DNA of 64,000 nucleotides from Coemansia sp. RSA 487. Taxonomy: Eukaryota; Kickxellomycota; Kickxellomycetes; Kickxellales; Kickxellaceae. Numbering within the stretch: the first letter of the stretch is position 1; each line of letters opens with the position of its first letter. Under the pieces are notes generated by a model. That model made no database searches, was not told the origin of the DNA, and saw nothing but the letters and a program-made list of their open reading frames with translations. Of this stretch, positions 21,690 to 64,000 are shown one piece after another. A program made the position numbers and the translations under genes. The stretch is taken from contig JANBRJ010000037.1 in the NCBI GenBank assembly GCA_027577595.1, positions 85,762 to 149,761 on the forward strand. Reading direction: 5' to 3'.

Positions 21690-24040
21690 TTAGGATCCGC
21701 TCCTCCCTTCCAAGACTCTTTGAAGAAAATTATCAAGCATTATTTTCATCCACTTGCTGTATCATTCTGTATTTTATCCATCCTCAATCACACGCATCCC
21801 TTGCGTTTACAACTTGTTAACCAATTTGCACGATATATTTTTATTGACGAACTTTACAAAAATCAAAACCTTCAATTCCATACTTATTTGAACAGGTAGT
21901 TTTTGTGGAAGCATTTCTCCACTTGACTGCAAGGATGCAAGCTGGGTTATCACGGCTGAAACGCCAGATCCAAGACGCCATTCGTACCGGATCCTACGAC
22001 GTCCATGGCCTCTTCCCTTCCGCCATTATCACGATCCATCATCTAACGCCGATTCTCAATTCATATGCTACAGGTTATGAATTCGAAAAAAAACAATATC
22101 TATTATGACGTTAAGGTGCACCCTGAAATACATGCAAAGGCGTATTTAGGATCACTCAGCTATTTGAGACAGAAGGTGAGTGTGTGTTCCAAAGTATGCC
22201 GCCGCACATGATGTGGGTGCCACAGCACATGGCTATAGCCACCGACATCCTGCGCCGGAACATATTGCAAGACACAGCAGATAAAGCAACATACGAAAAA
22301 AAACGAAAACATATGGTGGCAGATCAGATTTTGGACCTCAAATCCAAAGCAATAAGTTTCGCAAAGCGGGCATAACTTTAAACACACAGTACAAACGGAC
22401 GGCGTTTCTATTTCTATCATCAAAGAAAAAGAGAATGGCGGCTGGAGGCCCAAGCGAAAAAAAGGTAGCGAATTGAAGTACGTGAGCGATCTTGACAAGG
22501 AAAAAGCTCAACGAAATCATCGACAGAAGCGCATATTTGGATCCTAATCGCCACAACCTCAAACATGGGATCCTTCCTAGCAGCACAGCAGAAGACCCAA
22601 AGTGTATTCGCTACGCTCGCGACCAACACGCACACGAAACGAAAATACATAGGCATCAACATATACTTGCTATTGTAAAAGCTGCGTACCGCAACGGCAT
22701 TGTGTTGGAGGCTGAGGAGCGCCTCCAACAAGTATCGTGTACGACGACGAATCCTACAGAGTATAAAAGATATTTGCGAACACAAACAGCTGTGCACAGC
22801 GTTTTGAGCGAGTTTTGCACGGAAACGCTCACCAATCGCAACGAATTCGGACAATATCTGCATCGTCGTTTGAGGCTTTCCACTTACATGAATCAGTTGG
22901 CGGCGAACCAACGCCTCGCGAACTATATCCGAAAGAAGGCAGGGAGAAACGACCTCGTGTTGATTATCGGCGACTGGCAGGCAGCAATGGTGCGCTCCCA
23001 GGAGCCGATTCGCGGCATTGGCATGCTTTGTATGCTCCGACGACAGGGCTTCGAAGTATATACAGTCGACGAGTTCCGGACATCGACGTTCTGCCCTAGC
23101 TGCGGTAGCATACTACGCAAGTGTCTCCGCGTCCAGAATCCGCGCAATAAATCCAGAAAGCAACCTCCCATTCGTTGTGTGTCATGGGTTGCTTGAGTGC
23201 ACCAGCGACGAGTGCATCCAGTACGTGAAGGAGAAGCTGAGGGAGAAGAGCGGGAATGAGTCTGGAGCTGAGGGCAATCCAGGTGTGAATGTTGAGGGGC
23301 GCTACTGGAATCGCGACACAGCAGCAGCGCTGAACTTTAGAATAATCACCGATAGCTTACGCACAGTCAGGCGTGTCCCAGAACGCTTCAATCGCAAGGT
23401 GAAGCTGACCCCGGAGCAGCAACGCCAACACCAGCCGCTCAAGCTACAGGTGCTGCACAAGCTACAGTAGACGCGGGAGAAATGGCTGCAAATGCGGTAG
23501 AAATACCAACAACAGAAACGGGAGTGGCAGGAGCAGCGTGCACAGCATAAGTAACACGAGGAGCAACGCCTTCTGGAAAATCAACAGCGACTCGACCAAC
23601 TTATGTGAGGCACAACGCAATAAATTTATGGACAATCAAGAACAGCGGGAGAGGGAGCTCGGTACCGCGAGCTGCAGAGTTTAAAGAACACCATCGTCAA
23701 CTCGAACGGAAGCGGCGCCAAAACCATGAGCTGCAAGCAACAACAACAAATACAACCACCACCAAACAAAATCCGCCATCTCGCTAGACGCCCAGCTGTT
23801 GCAGCCGCTTCTGCTGCCCAACCAAACCGCCGTTCCAAGCGCAAGGCTTCTCTGGGTGCTACTGTCGTTCAGCCAGATGATAGTACCAGATGCAGAGTCG
23901 TTGCCACTGCTTCGTCCGATTCCGAAGCCCAACTGAGCTGTTGTTATCCCAAGCGCAAGGCTGCTACGGCCTCAACGTCTGCTGCAACTGCACAGGAGCA
24001 GGAGCAAACTGCCAAGCGTAAGCGTACTGACTGGCAATGA
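21690..24040 (+). pseudogene. Fanzor (eukaryotic TnpB-like RNA-guided nuclease), frameshifted
   Basis: A nearly full-length Fanzor broken by at least four frame changes or stops. In order: a helical N-terminal part (about 21690-22180); FKHTVQTDGVSISIIK (22380s), the family's TDGVS motif; RuvC-I YLDPNRHNL with Asp at 22540-22542; GDW followed by an arginine-rich segment; VDEFRTSTFCPSC with Glu at 23071-23073 and the first zinc-ribbon pair; then CHGLLEC, the second pair; and RuvC-III YWNRDTAAALNF with Asp at 23315-23317. A single-base shift separates 'SDLDKEK' from 'LNEIIDRSAYLD', and another separates the two zinc pairs. After a stop at 23468 a Gln-rich, then Lys/Arg-rich frame continues to 24040 (KRKRTDWQ), probably the old C-terminal tail. 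Fanzors cut DNA guided by an omega-RNA made from the element's 3' end. The catalytic set is legible but the gene cannot make the whole protein unless some breaks are introns. Confidence 0.82.
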
Positions 24041-39718: not shown

Positions 39719-40138
39719 TTAAGACTGCTGCTGCGATTTTGCTGAACGAGGCTTCATTCTGGGCTGTGCAGAGCCACTGGTAGGCCTCTTGGCGCCTCTC
39801 GCGAGCTTCTTGGTCTTCTTTTCTGGTGGAAGAGTGGTACCACGCCTAAAACGCCCAAGTCTCTTGTGTGTTTGGCGCAGCCTATGGAGGGTATGCCTAA
39901 AATTCAATACAACAGCAAAATCTCTGTTCCAAAACCGAGCAGCAGGCTCTTTCCCGAGATGGCTAGCAGACTTCATGCTATCTGCCACATGCTCCACACA
40001 TTTTTTGCTTTGGCACATTAGGAGTCCCATGGCAAGTAACCTACTCACGCCTATTCTCTTTCAGGTAGGGCCTTGGGTTTGGAACCAGCTCTTCAGGATG
40101 CACAAACCTGTATTCGCAACACCCAGGGCAGAAAGCTA
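39719..40138 (-). pseudogene. Fanzor C-terminal fragment
   Basis: The minus strand gives FCPGCCEYRF, then LVPNPRPYLKENR (first half of the zinc ribbon and the PNPRPY motif). After a stop and one-base shift it gives GLLMCQSKKC (second zinc pair) and RuvC-III FWNRDFAVVLNF with HTLHRLRQTHKRLGRF. It finishes with a basic tail (KKTKKLARGAKRP) to the stop at 39719. It aligns motif for motif with the loci at 21690 and 63702. Everything upstream of the zinc ribbon is missing, and Tc1/mariner-type sequence begins just beyond (about 40190). Inactive relic. Confidence 0.82.
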
Positions 40139-56300: not shown

Positions 56301-56542
56301 TGTATTTTGCAAAACCAATTGTGCTGAATAAAAAGGATGGATATGCGTCAGATAGCGAAAGGTTTGTGGTGGCGATGGCGCATTTTGTGTTCCAAGAAAA
56401 GGTTGCTTGCGCACATGTGGCAAGTCATTTGCATTAGCTAGCATTGTATTTGTGCTTGGAAGCAAAAGGCGCAAACTGGGCTTTGTGGAGAAAGCTGTTC
56501 GCTACACGTCTATCATTTTACACTAACAATGGATTGACTTCC

Positions 56543-56579
<37 letters not shown>

Positions 56580-56730
56580 TTCAATGCGATTAGTTAACAT
56601 TGATCCTAATAAAACCTAACAGTCTGAAGAAATACAACTAAGCCATGCACCCCTTGTCAGGCGTAGGCATGTTGGAAGACTGCTGCTCAAATAAGGAGCC
56701 AGAGAACATTTTGTACGCATATGTACACTG

Positions 56731-57149
56731 ATGGATGTTGATCCACCAGAGAGCAGCCACAGAGAAGAAGTAGCAGAAGAAACACCTCGGGCAAGAAAAG
56801 AGCAAAAAAAAACAAAACAAAATAAACCTAAAATCAGAGGACATTACAGAAAATACATACCACAGCAAACTGAAAAGCTATTTGATTTGGTCATAGAAGA
56901 AGAAGAACGCTCAGCAAAAAAGCAGCATTACTAGCTGGAATAAACATTCGAACAGCTCAGGGCTATGTGAAAATATACAGAGATGATGAACAGAAGCATT
57001 TGCCCGGTGTTGAGCGTAAGCCTCGTGTTGAGCGTAAGCCTCGTGAAGAGCGTCCGAGCAAACTAAATGACATATACTCACAGCTTCTCATACAGTTTGT
57101 GAATAAGGACCCAACTGCGGCAAAAAAGATGATGAGAATGAGCAAATAA
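56731..57149 (+). pseudogene. IS630/Tc1-type transposase N-terminus joined to Fanzor tail
   Basis: The plus strand reads RGHYRKYIPQQTEKLFDLVI, then after a frameshift ALLAGINIRTAQGYVKIYRD, LPGVERKPRVERKPREER and KLNDIYSQLLIQFVNKDPTA. This is the helix-turn-helix DNA-binding region common in fungal IS630/Tc1-like transposases. It then runs directly into KKMMRMSK and a stop. That stop and its downstream sequence match the end (KTVRTSK, stop) of the Fanzor at 63702. The catalytic DDE domain and nearly all of Fanzor are deleted between these two pieces. Confidence 0.7.
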
Positions 57150-57465
57150 CAGTCACCACGAAGTTCAGCCAAGGTTATGGCCGCGGGAAACCCTAGCTCT
57201 AGGATAGGATGCTGATGCTGTCCCTTTTGCAGGTAGATGCTCAAACGAAAGCTGAAGAGATAAACATCTGCGGCTGTTTCTAGACAATAGTATTAATCAG
57301 TTGTGTTTTCTCTTGCGTGTTTTCCTGTTTTGCACTGACGCATATGCCACGCCTGCGCAAACAATTTTTCTCGGGACGCAAAATGTTTATCGCCACTGCA
57401 TAGCTTTCACCATTCAGCACGTATACACCCCTTCTTATTCGATGCAATTAGTTTTGCAAAATACA
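57150..57465 (+). ncRNA. Candidate omega-RNA region of the deleted element
   Basis: The 316 bp from the Fanzor stop to the element end align with 63400-63701. The best-kept part (57178-57232) contains GCCGCGGGAAACCCTAG and CTCTAGGATAGGATGC, a GC-rich block able to fold. In Fanzor and TnpB systems the guide RNA scaffold is encoded here, ending at the element's right end. Expression is not shown. Confidence 0.4.
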
Positions 57466-61536: not shown

Positions 61537-63399
61537 CTAATCACCATTGCCAAGCTGTTCGTATCCTTGGCGACTGTTACGCCATTTCCAGTACAAATGG
61601 GACAGGGCGCCGCCCAACCCAGCAACGAAAGCAAGCACACACAGAACAAGCACGGTTTTGAACAATACGTGGGCAAATCTGCAAACCCACGAAGCGCCCT
61701 CATTATCACCATGGGGTACAATAGACACCCGCTTAGCTATAGAGATGTGCTCAGGTTTGCCCCCGATTTCCTCCAGCACATACAATGTGTTCAAAGGAGG
61801 CTTCTCATCGTCATCTGTGGGCAAGCTGAGATAGGATCTAGGTAGGTGGTAGTACTGCTGCGAGTACTCGCCACATCCTTGCCTGCACACGTTGTCTGGC
61901 CAGTACCATCCGCCATAGCCGCACTGTTGGCACGGTTTGTGGGATTCCTTGGCAGGAGCGCGACGCAGCCAGTAGCGACCCAGATGATGTCCGTTGATCC
62001 ACAACTGGCCCTTGGTCATCGACGACATATCCACGCCGTAGCGTGGCTCATCATTAGCGCTGCGCTCCTCGTTGGCAACAAGCGCAGTGGCATCGATGTC
62101 TATCGCATACCAGCGGGCTATCGACTTCATATGGCCCGTGGAGCGGTCGGTCTTGGGCTGGTATGGCATCCAGGGATGCAGCTGGGCTGTGGGGGCGTCA
62201 AGCGGATTGGCTTCGCCCTCGAGCCCCGGCTGCACTTGCCATTTGCCATCGGTTATGTCGTGGCCGCATAGCTCGATGGATCCAAGAAGCCCCCTTGCGT
62301 ACGCTTCCATGTGCCGCTGGTTGTGCGCCATCCCCATTGTCTGCGACAGGATCCTCAGCTCCACCTTCTGCTTCGTGCTGCCGGCCGTGAAAAAGCCTGC
62401 CACGTCAAACGTAAATGTTGCCAACCGGTCTTGCTGGCCATACCGCATCCCCATGTATTGGTCGTCCAAGTAAACGGAGGCGACATCGCCAGCATCACGG
62501 AGCACAAGCGTTCCGGTGGTGGAGTTGCATGTCGCCGGGACGTCGACCGTCGTGCGGTACCATAGGTAGTCCGTGGTATCGTCGGTTATGGAGATATGTT
62601 CCGGCGGGCGCGAGTACACGGGATCTGCAGCATCCAGAGATGATGTATCTTGCTGCATGGGCAGGTCGATTGGGCGCCAGCGAACAGAATCCTTGCGCAT
62701 AATGGGGCGGTGGCTCTGCGACTCGTCGTCGAGCGCAGGGGAGCTAATGTGCTCGAAGTATGCGGGGTTCTTCTGCGCACGCTTGACATCGCTGGAAAGC
62801 GTGGCAGAGTTGTACAGGATGGTGGGCCTGGAGTCGCCGGCACGCTTGCGCACAAGCGTGACCGACCATCTGGGCAAATCCAGGTCCACGCCGTCGTATC
62901 TGACACTCACGTCGCTGTTTGCGTCAACGTTGATCAAAAATGCCAGGTAGTCGGTGCTGGATCCGTATGTCTTTGCATAGGTCTTTGGGCTGCCCGCAAG
63001 CGTCTGGGACTCGGGCACCGGATTGCCGGTGATGATATCGGAGTGGTCCAGCAGGTGGTTGTGGAGCTTTGCCAGGTGCAAGTACTTTGGCCAGTTCTCC
63101 AACCCATACTCGTCGAGAAACCCCTCGTAGTCGTAGGACGTCAGGATGAACGGCCCTGACGTGCGGCCAAAGTTGGTCCCGCCCTGGTACATGTAGTATG
63201 CAACGTATGTGCCGCCATGCGCATACCACTTGGCTACCGCATACGCAACGTCCTCGATGGGCCGGTGCGGCGCAGGCTCGCCCCACCGCTGGAACCATGC
63301 TGGCCACATCTCGGTCCACATATCGGGGAAGCCTGGGTGGTCCCTGTGGTACTTGTCCAAATACTGGTCGCAATAAAAGTTGTTTTGCGTCGGAATTGC
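61537..63399 (-). pseudogene. GH35 beta-galactosidase, 5' part replaced by a transposon end
   Basis: About 620 codons of a plant-type GH35 enzyme remain open. Legible parts are NNFYCDQY, MWTEMW (the nucleophile Glu), YYMYQGGTNFGRTSGPF, SYDYEGFLDEYG, the beta-sandwich motif GQLWINGHHLGRYW and the Cys-rich CQQCGYGGWYWP...CGEYSQQYYHLPRSYL. The C-terminus adds a membrane span (FKTVLVLCVLAFVAGLGGAL), so the enzyme was probably anchored. The N-terminal half of the TIM barrel, including the acid/base Glu region (usually Q-x-E-N-E-Y/F-G), the signal peptide and the start codon, is missing. At 63399/63400 the frame passes straight into the transposon end. No in-frame ATG precedes MWTEMW. The lack of stops in the remainder suggests a recent break. 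The missing half may lie on the other side of the element. Confidence 0.85.
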
Positions 63400-63701
63400 T
63401 GTGTTTTGCAAAACTAATTGCGCCAAATAAGGATGTATACGCACCGAATGGCGAAAGGTTTGCGGTGGTGATAATGAATTTTGCGATCCAAGAAAAGTCG
63501 TTTGCACAGGCGTGGCATATGCATCAGCGTAAAACAGAAAAACACGAGAAAACACAAATGATTAGTACCATTGTCAAAAAGCAGCCACAATGTTTATCTC
63601 TTCAGTGCTCATTCGAGTACCTACCTGCAAAAGGGATAGCATCCTGTCCTAGAATTAGGATTTGCCGCGGCTATAACCTTGGCTGGATTCCGTGGTGGTT
63701 G
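63400..63701 (-). ncRNA. Candidate omega-RNA of the edge Fanzor copy
   Basis: The 302 bp between the Fanzor stop and the element end. The core 63628-63670 (minus strand AGCCGCGGCAAATCCTAATT then CTAGGACAGGATGC) is conserved with 57178-57232 and, more weakly, 39621-39662. By analogy with characterised Fanzors the RNA would extend past the element end, so its guide would be GH35 sequence immediately below 63400. Transcription is inferred only. Confidence 0.42.
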
Positions 63702-64000
63702 TTATTTGCTTGTCCTCACCGTCTTCCTTTTCTTCTTGGGCTGCTGTTCATCAGCGGTAGCAGCGGCAGTAGGCTGACTGCGACAAAAGCGCTCTGGAGT
63801 CTCGCCATGGTCGCGAAGGCCATGGAAAATATGCCTGAAGTTGAGAACAGCAGCGAGATCTCGGTTATATATGCGTGAGCGAGGAGTCAAAACGCCATCC
63901 ATTTCCATGGGTCCCATACATATTTCGTTGGTGCACTTAAGGAGACCGTGGCAGAGGACCTCTTTCATCTTCTTTCGTTGGTAGGGGCGGGGGTTGGGCA
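63702..64000 (-). CDS. Fanzor nuclease, C-terminal part, open at the right edge
   Basis: The frame is open from beyond base 64000 to the stop at 63702. It begins inside the zinc ribbon with PNPRPYQRKK, continues with EVLCHGLLKCTNEIC (second zinc pair), and has RuvC-III IYNRDLAAVLNF followed by RHIFHGLRDHGETPERF. It ends with a basic, NLS-like tail (QQPKKKRKTVRTSK). There are no frame breaks in the visible 98 codons, unlike the other two loci, so this copy may be intact upstream. An ATG at 63968 occurs but lies within the zinc ribbon and is not the start. RNA-guided DNA endonuclease by family; activity unproven. Confidence 0.85.
   Translation of the reverse strand, partial: PNPRPYQRKKMKEVLCHGLLKCTNEICMGPMEMDGVLTPRSRIYNRDLAAVLNFRHIFHGLRDHGETPERFCRSQPTAAATADEQQPKKKRKTVRTSK

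Follow-up and report, generated by a model that had tools for sequence, protein, structure and literature searches.

Transposons of the Tc/mariner type that carry Fanzor1 were already described in 2013 (Bao and Jurka, PMC3627910). In the elements of that paper, terminal inverted repeats enclose Fanzor1 together with a mariner-type transposase, other elements have these repeats but Fanzor1 only, and SPu-1 has 17 full-length copies, nine of them intact. The published mechanism, drawn from SpuFz1, PpFz1 and an insect-virus Fanzor1, is that the Fanzor1 protein binds RNA from the 3' end of its element, uses about 15 flanking bases as guide and cuts matching DNA beside a TAM (PMC11423790, PMC10432273, PMC10711439). 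The catalytic residues of SpuFz1 are D383, E541 and D606 (PMC11423790), and a TDG motif in the WED domain marks Fanzor1 (PMC10711439).

At the right edge of the window (the whole stretch of 64,000 nucleotides that was analyzed, C37:85762-149761, in a genome of 17.8 Mb) there is, in our judgment probably, the 3' end of a Fanzor1-carrying Tc1/mariner-like transposon inserted in a GH35 gene of a eukaryote, presumably a fungus, with its 5' end on a second contig, C170; the copy would be of a compact form and broken by a TAG, in a family that has intact members. Like the elements of Bao and Jurka (PMC3627910), this family has copies whose terminal inverted repeats enclose Fanzor1 and a mariner-type transposase, as well as copies with those repeats and Fanzor1 alone, and here too, as in SPu-1, several copies in one genome are intact. 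Spu-1 of Spizellomyces punctatus, as presented in PMC10432273, has many copies with proteins about 82% identical, some intact and others consisting of repeats without a frame ("ghost" elements), together with Ty3 insertions, a conserved stretch after the stop and the catalytic D-E-D; each of these features recurs here, where the intact copies are 82-88% identical to P0001, a full-length sister on contig C82. The features of the locus are as follows.

61537..63396, minus strand: GH35 beta-galactosidase, C-terminal part (PF01301, PF21467)
63397..63398, minus strand: CA dinucleotide adjoining the 3' end, matched by a CA at the 5' end on C170
63399..63517, minus strand: end of the element with its 3' terminal inverted repeat, which inward reads C(T/A)GTRTTTTGC...
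63579..63701, minus strand: conserved non-coding block that adjoins the stop codon, a candidate for an RNA or a 3' regulatory region
63702..63998, minus strand: C-terminal 98 codons of Fanzor1 (P0004), open up to the contig end, with the TAA stop at 63702-63704
63858..63860, minus strand: codon of Asp47 (NRD) of P0004, equivalent by alignment to catalytic D606 of SpuFz1 (residue number from PMC11423790)
63918..63935, minus strand: C22 and C27 of P0004, the second pair of cysteines in the TNB (zinc) domain, read from the sequence
C170 (L058:719-1093), minus strand, ending near base 718: GH35, N-terminal part
56301..57465, plus strand: internally deleted element of the same family, 1165 bp, which lacks a Fanzor frame but has kept the 3' block and both repeats

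P0004 alone gave no Pfam match up to E 1 and was therefore identified through full-length relatives. The piece is 87% identical over 97 residues to residues 661-757 of P0001, which in turn matches the Fanzor1 of Parasitella parasitica (E 9.1e-103), SpuFz1 (E 6.5e-41, a distant relationship) and Guillardia Fanzor1 (E 6.3e-5); all three distinct PDB sequences matched by P0001 up to E 0.1 are Fanzor1. Residues D458, E638 and D706 of P0001 align with D383, E541 and D606 of SpuFz1 (numbering checked with an inferred offset of 394 for the fused tag), and D, E and D are all present in five of five intact copies. Only the NRD aspartate of this set lies within the window piece, where Asp47 aligns with D706 of P0001 and D606 of SpuFz1. 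The second cysteine pair is also found in the nine other copies compared with the window piece, the C-terminus is a lysine-rich tail, and TDGV is seen in 9 of the 11 sister frames examined; the matches of two full-length sisters to the Pfam TNB model fall below its cut-off. The best match of P0001 among solved structures, PpFz1, has an insertion of about 100 residues, taken to be the FRI domain of PMC11423790, that is absent here (it falls between P0001 residues 565 and 568). The family is thus, as judged by these alignments, Fanzor1 with its catalytic residues, and its relatedness predicts RNA-guided cleavage. The first-pass annotation had read the window edge as the last 98 codons of a Fanzor, unbroken and with half of a zinc ribbon, the RuvC-III NRD and a basic tail, followed by a conserved 3' tail and a defined element end; all of this is borne out, with the type now given as 1 by the P0001 matches and the identity of the piece to P0001, and the end as a roughly 117-bp terminal inverted repeat that finishes near 63399.

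The last 1 kb of the window has at least 55 matches in its own genome, itself counted (40 of 185 candidates scored), a recurrence far beyond chance. A search of the genome with P0001 gave at least 68 matches (59 of 269 candidates scored), many of them broken sister copies, and five copies that run to the C-terminus without a stop:

C82, residues 1-757: P0001 itself
C19, residues 1-754: 86% identical to P0001
C5:38076, residues 1-755: 87% identical to P0001
C60, residues 1-757: 82% identical to P0001
C71, residues 50-757: 88% identical to P0001

Among 11 first-family frames, the 53 pairs that share more than 500 codons have a median dN/dS of 0.31 at a median dS of 0.27, pairwise values in which selection on the active lineage is mixed with neutral change in dead copies. 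The ten pairs among the five intact copies give 0.23-0.36, the shifted N-terminus of C71 being a source of noise, and the 88 comparable codons of the window give 0.13-0.26 against nine other copies. Sister copies therefore appear, from these substitution rates, to have been kept working by purifying selection, and the family can, judging by its open frames, make an intact Fanzor1 protein from copies other than that of the window.

Contig C37 stops at window base 64000, so the Fanzor frame is not directly extendable to the right. PF01301 has three matches in the genome, at the end of C37 (model positions 192-318), C170:776-997 (2-74) and C54 (23-151), the last in a different gene. The GH35 part in the window lacks the N-terminus, directly adjoins the element end at about 63399 and aligns with the beta-galactosidase 6ik6 from residue 209. 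The C170 reading (L058) aligns significantly to 6ik6 residues 6-82, and the stretch just before the element, ending VPWVMCHQY, resembles 6ik6 186-202, a likeness that is non-significant when taken alone (i-Evalue 3.1e+03). Along C170 the GH35 frame is followed by the 5' terminal repeat of the element at base 717 and then by the start of Fanzor. Because the GH35 halves each abut an element end, C170 and C37 most likely hold the two ends of one insertion, as inferred from the split gene, with no contig spanning it. Over 123 positions, the 3' repeat in the window and the 5' repeat on C170 agree at 78.9%. The left terminal repeat for which the first-pass annotation had proposed to look was found, on the probable 5' side of the window copy.

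GH35 on C170 also appears to lack about 103 residues (6ik6 83-185) before VPWVMC, in frame and within a single contig. We take the missing stretch to include the acid/base glutamate; with it gone, the GH35 may have been non-functional irrespective of the insertion.

Numbered from the conserved ATG, codon 56 of the Fanzor frame on C170 is a TAG; the frame is otherwise open until the contig ends at about residue 110 of P0001. Codon 56 is GAG, GAA or AAG in all 20 other copies that have it (two loci of one copy merged), and three further copies (C23, C60 and C119) lack it through deletion. The 77 terminal bases of C170 recur without a difference in the C5 and C7 copies, and those of C37 in the C25 copy, so that both contig ends look as if a de Bruijn assembly, its k being about 77, had halted where sequence is shared. 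At the C170 end, the base next to this common 77-base stretch is the T of the TAG; it therefore distinguishes this copy, yet it stands where an assembly error is easiest. The part of the window copy corresponding to P0001 residues ~111-659, in which RuvC-I and the first zinc pair lie, is unassembled, apparently because the family is repeated.

Were the TAG an assembly artefact or the property of another copy, the window copy could be intact and active with its frame open throughout, a reading that draws on the open and constrained state of the 98 window codons, on the TAG being a single base at an assembly branch point and on the five copies intact elsewhere. We consider it unlikely: besides the different gene on C54, PF01301 finds the N-terminal half of GH35 on C170 only, the Fanzor frame there carries the TAG, and the many broken sisters give a low prior for any one copy being intact. 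An element internally deleted past base 64000, of which the window would hold a 3' remnant only, has precedents in the copies on C72, C29 and C24 and at window 56301-57465, and three short copies do keep about the last 90 codons, the 3' tail and both repeats. This seems less likely still, as the C170 side keeps the Fanzor start to about residue 110, in frame but for the TAG, a part of the element that is missing from the short copies, and C37 ends at a shared 77-mer with no visible deletion edge.

The reading that we prefer is accordingly a compact copy split between C37 and C170. Its frame is probably not that of an intact nuclease gene, a judgment that depends on C37 and C170 belonging together and on a single base at an assembly branch point, and with that TAG the copy most likely makes no full-length nuclease. 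The suggestion in the first-pass annotation of a possibly intact element thus holds for the visible part, which is unbroken and constrained, and for the family, but is probably wrong for this copy: where it had allowed for an intact upstream part, the probable 5' half on C170 has a stop, an outcome that it had itself named as refuting. The motifs for which it had proposed to look upstream, here in the forms TDGV, RuvC-I DPG, IDEF(R/K)TS and CPNC, stand in a single frame in the five intact sisters; of the window copy's upstream part, only its left repeat and the beginning of its frame are visible.

We collected 34 element ends, with repeats of about 110-120 bp starting C(T/A)GTRTTTTGC, as against repeats of 33 bp in SPu-1 (PMC3627910). 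Read toward the element, the flanking dinucleotide is TG at 15 of the 34 ends, TA at 12 and CA at two, and in this non-uniformity of TA the family differs from the elements described in PMC3627910. Flanking dinucleotides match in three of ten two-ended copies (chance 0.064 each): C71 with TA, C78 with TG and the window/C170 pair with CA. A clean Tc1/mariner TA duplication was not found among these ends, TG being commoner than TA and TA/TA occurring in one of the ten two-ended copies.

Some long copies have a DDE_3 transposase (PF13358) between the 5' repeat and Fanzor, as in L024 (6.1e-12), with weaker matches below the cut-off in L031 (5.1e-6) and L011 (0.015). DDE_3 occurs at 51 places genome-wide, and 16 of 26 first-family copies have one on their own strand at most 5 kb upstream, against 0.19 expected from an even scatter; these 26 are the first-family matches that begin at residue 126 or before, and C170 is not among them. 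The other ten have no such DDE_3. By its terminal inverted repeats and the DDE_3 transposase of full copies, the element is Tc1/mariner-like. Only about 350 bases separate the C170 5' repeat from the conserved Fanzor ATG, which leaves no room for a transposase and makes the window copy a compact one. Two full copies of this type are about 2.8 kb long. DDE_3 also lies in open frames of 298-317 aa at C81:4348-4596, C19:215695-215916 and C99:3147-3389, which are candidates for surviving transposases.

Three elements of about 1 kb (L018:2071-3080, L020:1362-2371 and L021:1786-2759), some 81% alike, form a non-autonomous subfamily in which both repeats, the 3' block and roughly the final 90 codons of Fanzor are retained; the "ghost" elements described for Spizellomyces (PMC10432273) are comparable. 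The deleted element at 56301-57465 contains an internal stretch without a match in the elements compared. Remnants of a Ty3-type reverse transcriptase are found in several Fanzor elements (L011:6857-7615 and L014:6332-6868 by Pfam, L024:1845-2793 by DNA similarity and reading only); being common to several elements, they apparently go back to an insertion in an ancestor, with which they then spread.

The conserved block at 63579-63701 has a p-distance of 0.11 over 19 copies, and the outer end of the repeat 0.20 over the same number. Among seven copies the block stands at 0.10, against fourfold sites at 0.17 over the whole frame and 0.21 over the last 150 codons; among ten two-ended copies, four of them short, the block core lies at 0.07-0.09 and the first 270 columns of the 5' side at 0.14-0.26. 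In these comparisons the constraint is specific to the 3' side, and the block fits an RNA or a regulatory region. The fold of the 3' region shows weak covariation, with 3 of 53 predicted pairs changed on both sides. Known Fanzor1 guide RNAs are 75-150 nt long (PMC11423790); in PMC10432273 the guide RNA of SpuFz1 ends just past the element and its scaffold of about 75 nt lies at the element end, whereas the block here is set 180-300 bases inward from that end. The end of the 3' repeat would be expected to end the guide RNA scaffold. The TAM of PpFz1, ATN (PMC11423790), fits the AT(A/G) that precedes the element at 7 of 12 five-prime ends (0.38 expected; this partly follows from the TA/TG flank), but the window copy's own 5' flank, ACA, does not fit.

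Scarcity of AG in the 3' region (36 against 118 expected after a TACTAAT-like motif, in 19 copies), together with that motif and GT...AG-like ends, raised the possibility that the element is spliced from GH35 as an intron. AG is also rare in the 5' repeats in the same sense, with 12 occurrences in 12 five-prime repeats against 11 in 22 three-prime repeats; eight of the 12 come from two copies, and a one-sided Mann-Whitney test gives P 0.37. As AG is scarce in both repeats, the rarity looks inherited with the repeat and not like selection against acceptor sites; we regard splicing of the element as very improbable and rejected it.

By analogy with SpuFz1 and its relatives, the intact copies would supply the Fanzor1 protein, and the 3' ends of elements, broken copies included, may supply guide RNAs. 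The last ~15 bases of a guide would come from the flanking target, which for the window copy is GH35 sequence; the protein would cut DNA matching the guide, in this case the empty GH35 site, and cutting of the empty site would favor retention of the element. Guide RNA, cleavage and benefit to the element are all carried over from these relatives. That copies with a dead or missing frame, such as the window copy and the 1-kb forms, still donate guide RNAs to the nuclease of intact copies is a speculation to which we give little weight; if it were true, one shared nuclease would work with many guides, and each guide would match the unoccupied site of the insertion that it came from.

Taken alone, the window copy is probably a broken example of an already described system. 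One small genome here combines a Fanzor1 family with several intact copies apparently under purifying selection, a coding gene interrupted by an insertion whose two flanks are probably both known, and a 3' tail that stays conserved in copies whose Fanzor frame is broken or gone, and this combination should make the role of Fanzor for its transposon testable in one organism. Among the papers listed by a literature search, none was recognizably on this genome; most subscription journals were outside its scope, so nothing follows for what is in print.

A fungal Zn2Cys6 domain (PF00172) lies near a copy, in one of four frames scanned. Two stretches of the window, 22043-23443 (plus strand, with internal stops) and 39839-40060 (minus strand, a short C-terminal fragment), are Fanzor1 remnants of more distant families, in pieces 29-37% identical to P0001, and are probably the two other loci that the first-pass annotation had called broken. 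A second Fanzor1 family in the genome shares about 40% identity with P0001 and has frames of 772-816 aa without interruption, for example at C113:40304, C101:54195, C23:54756, C66:76136 and C81:58858.
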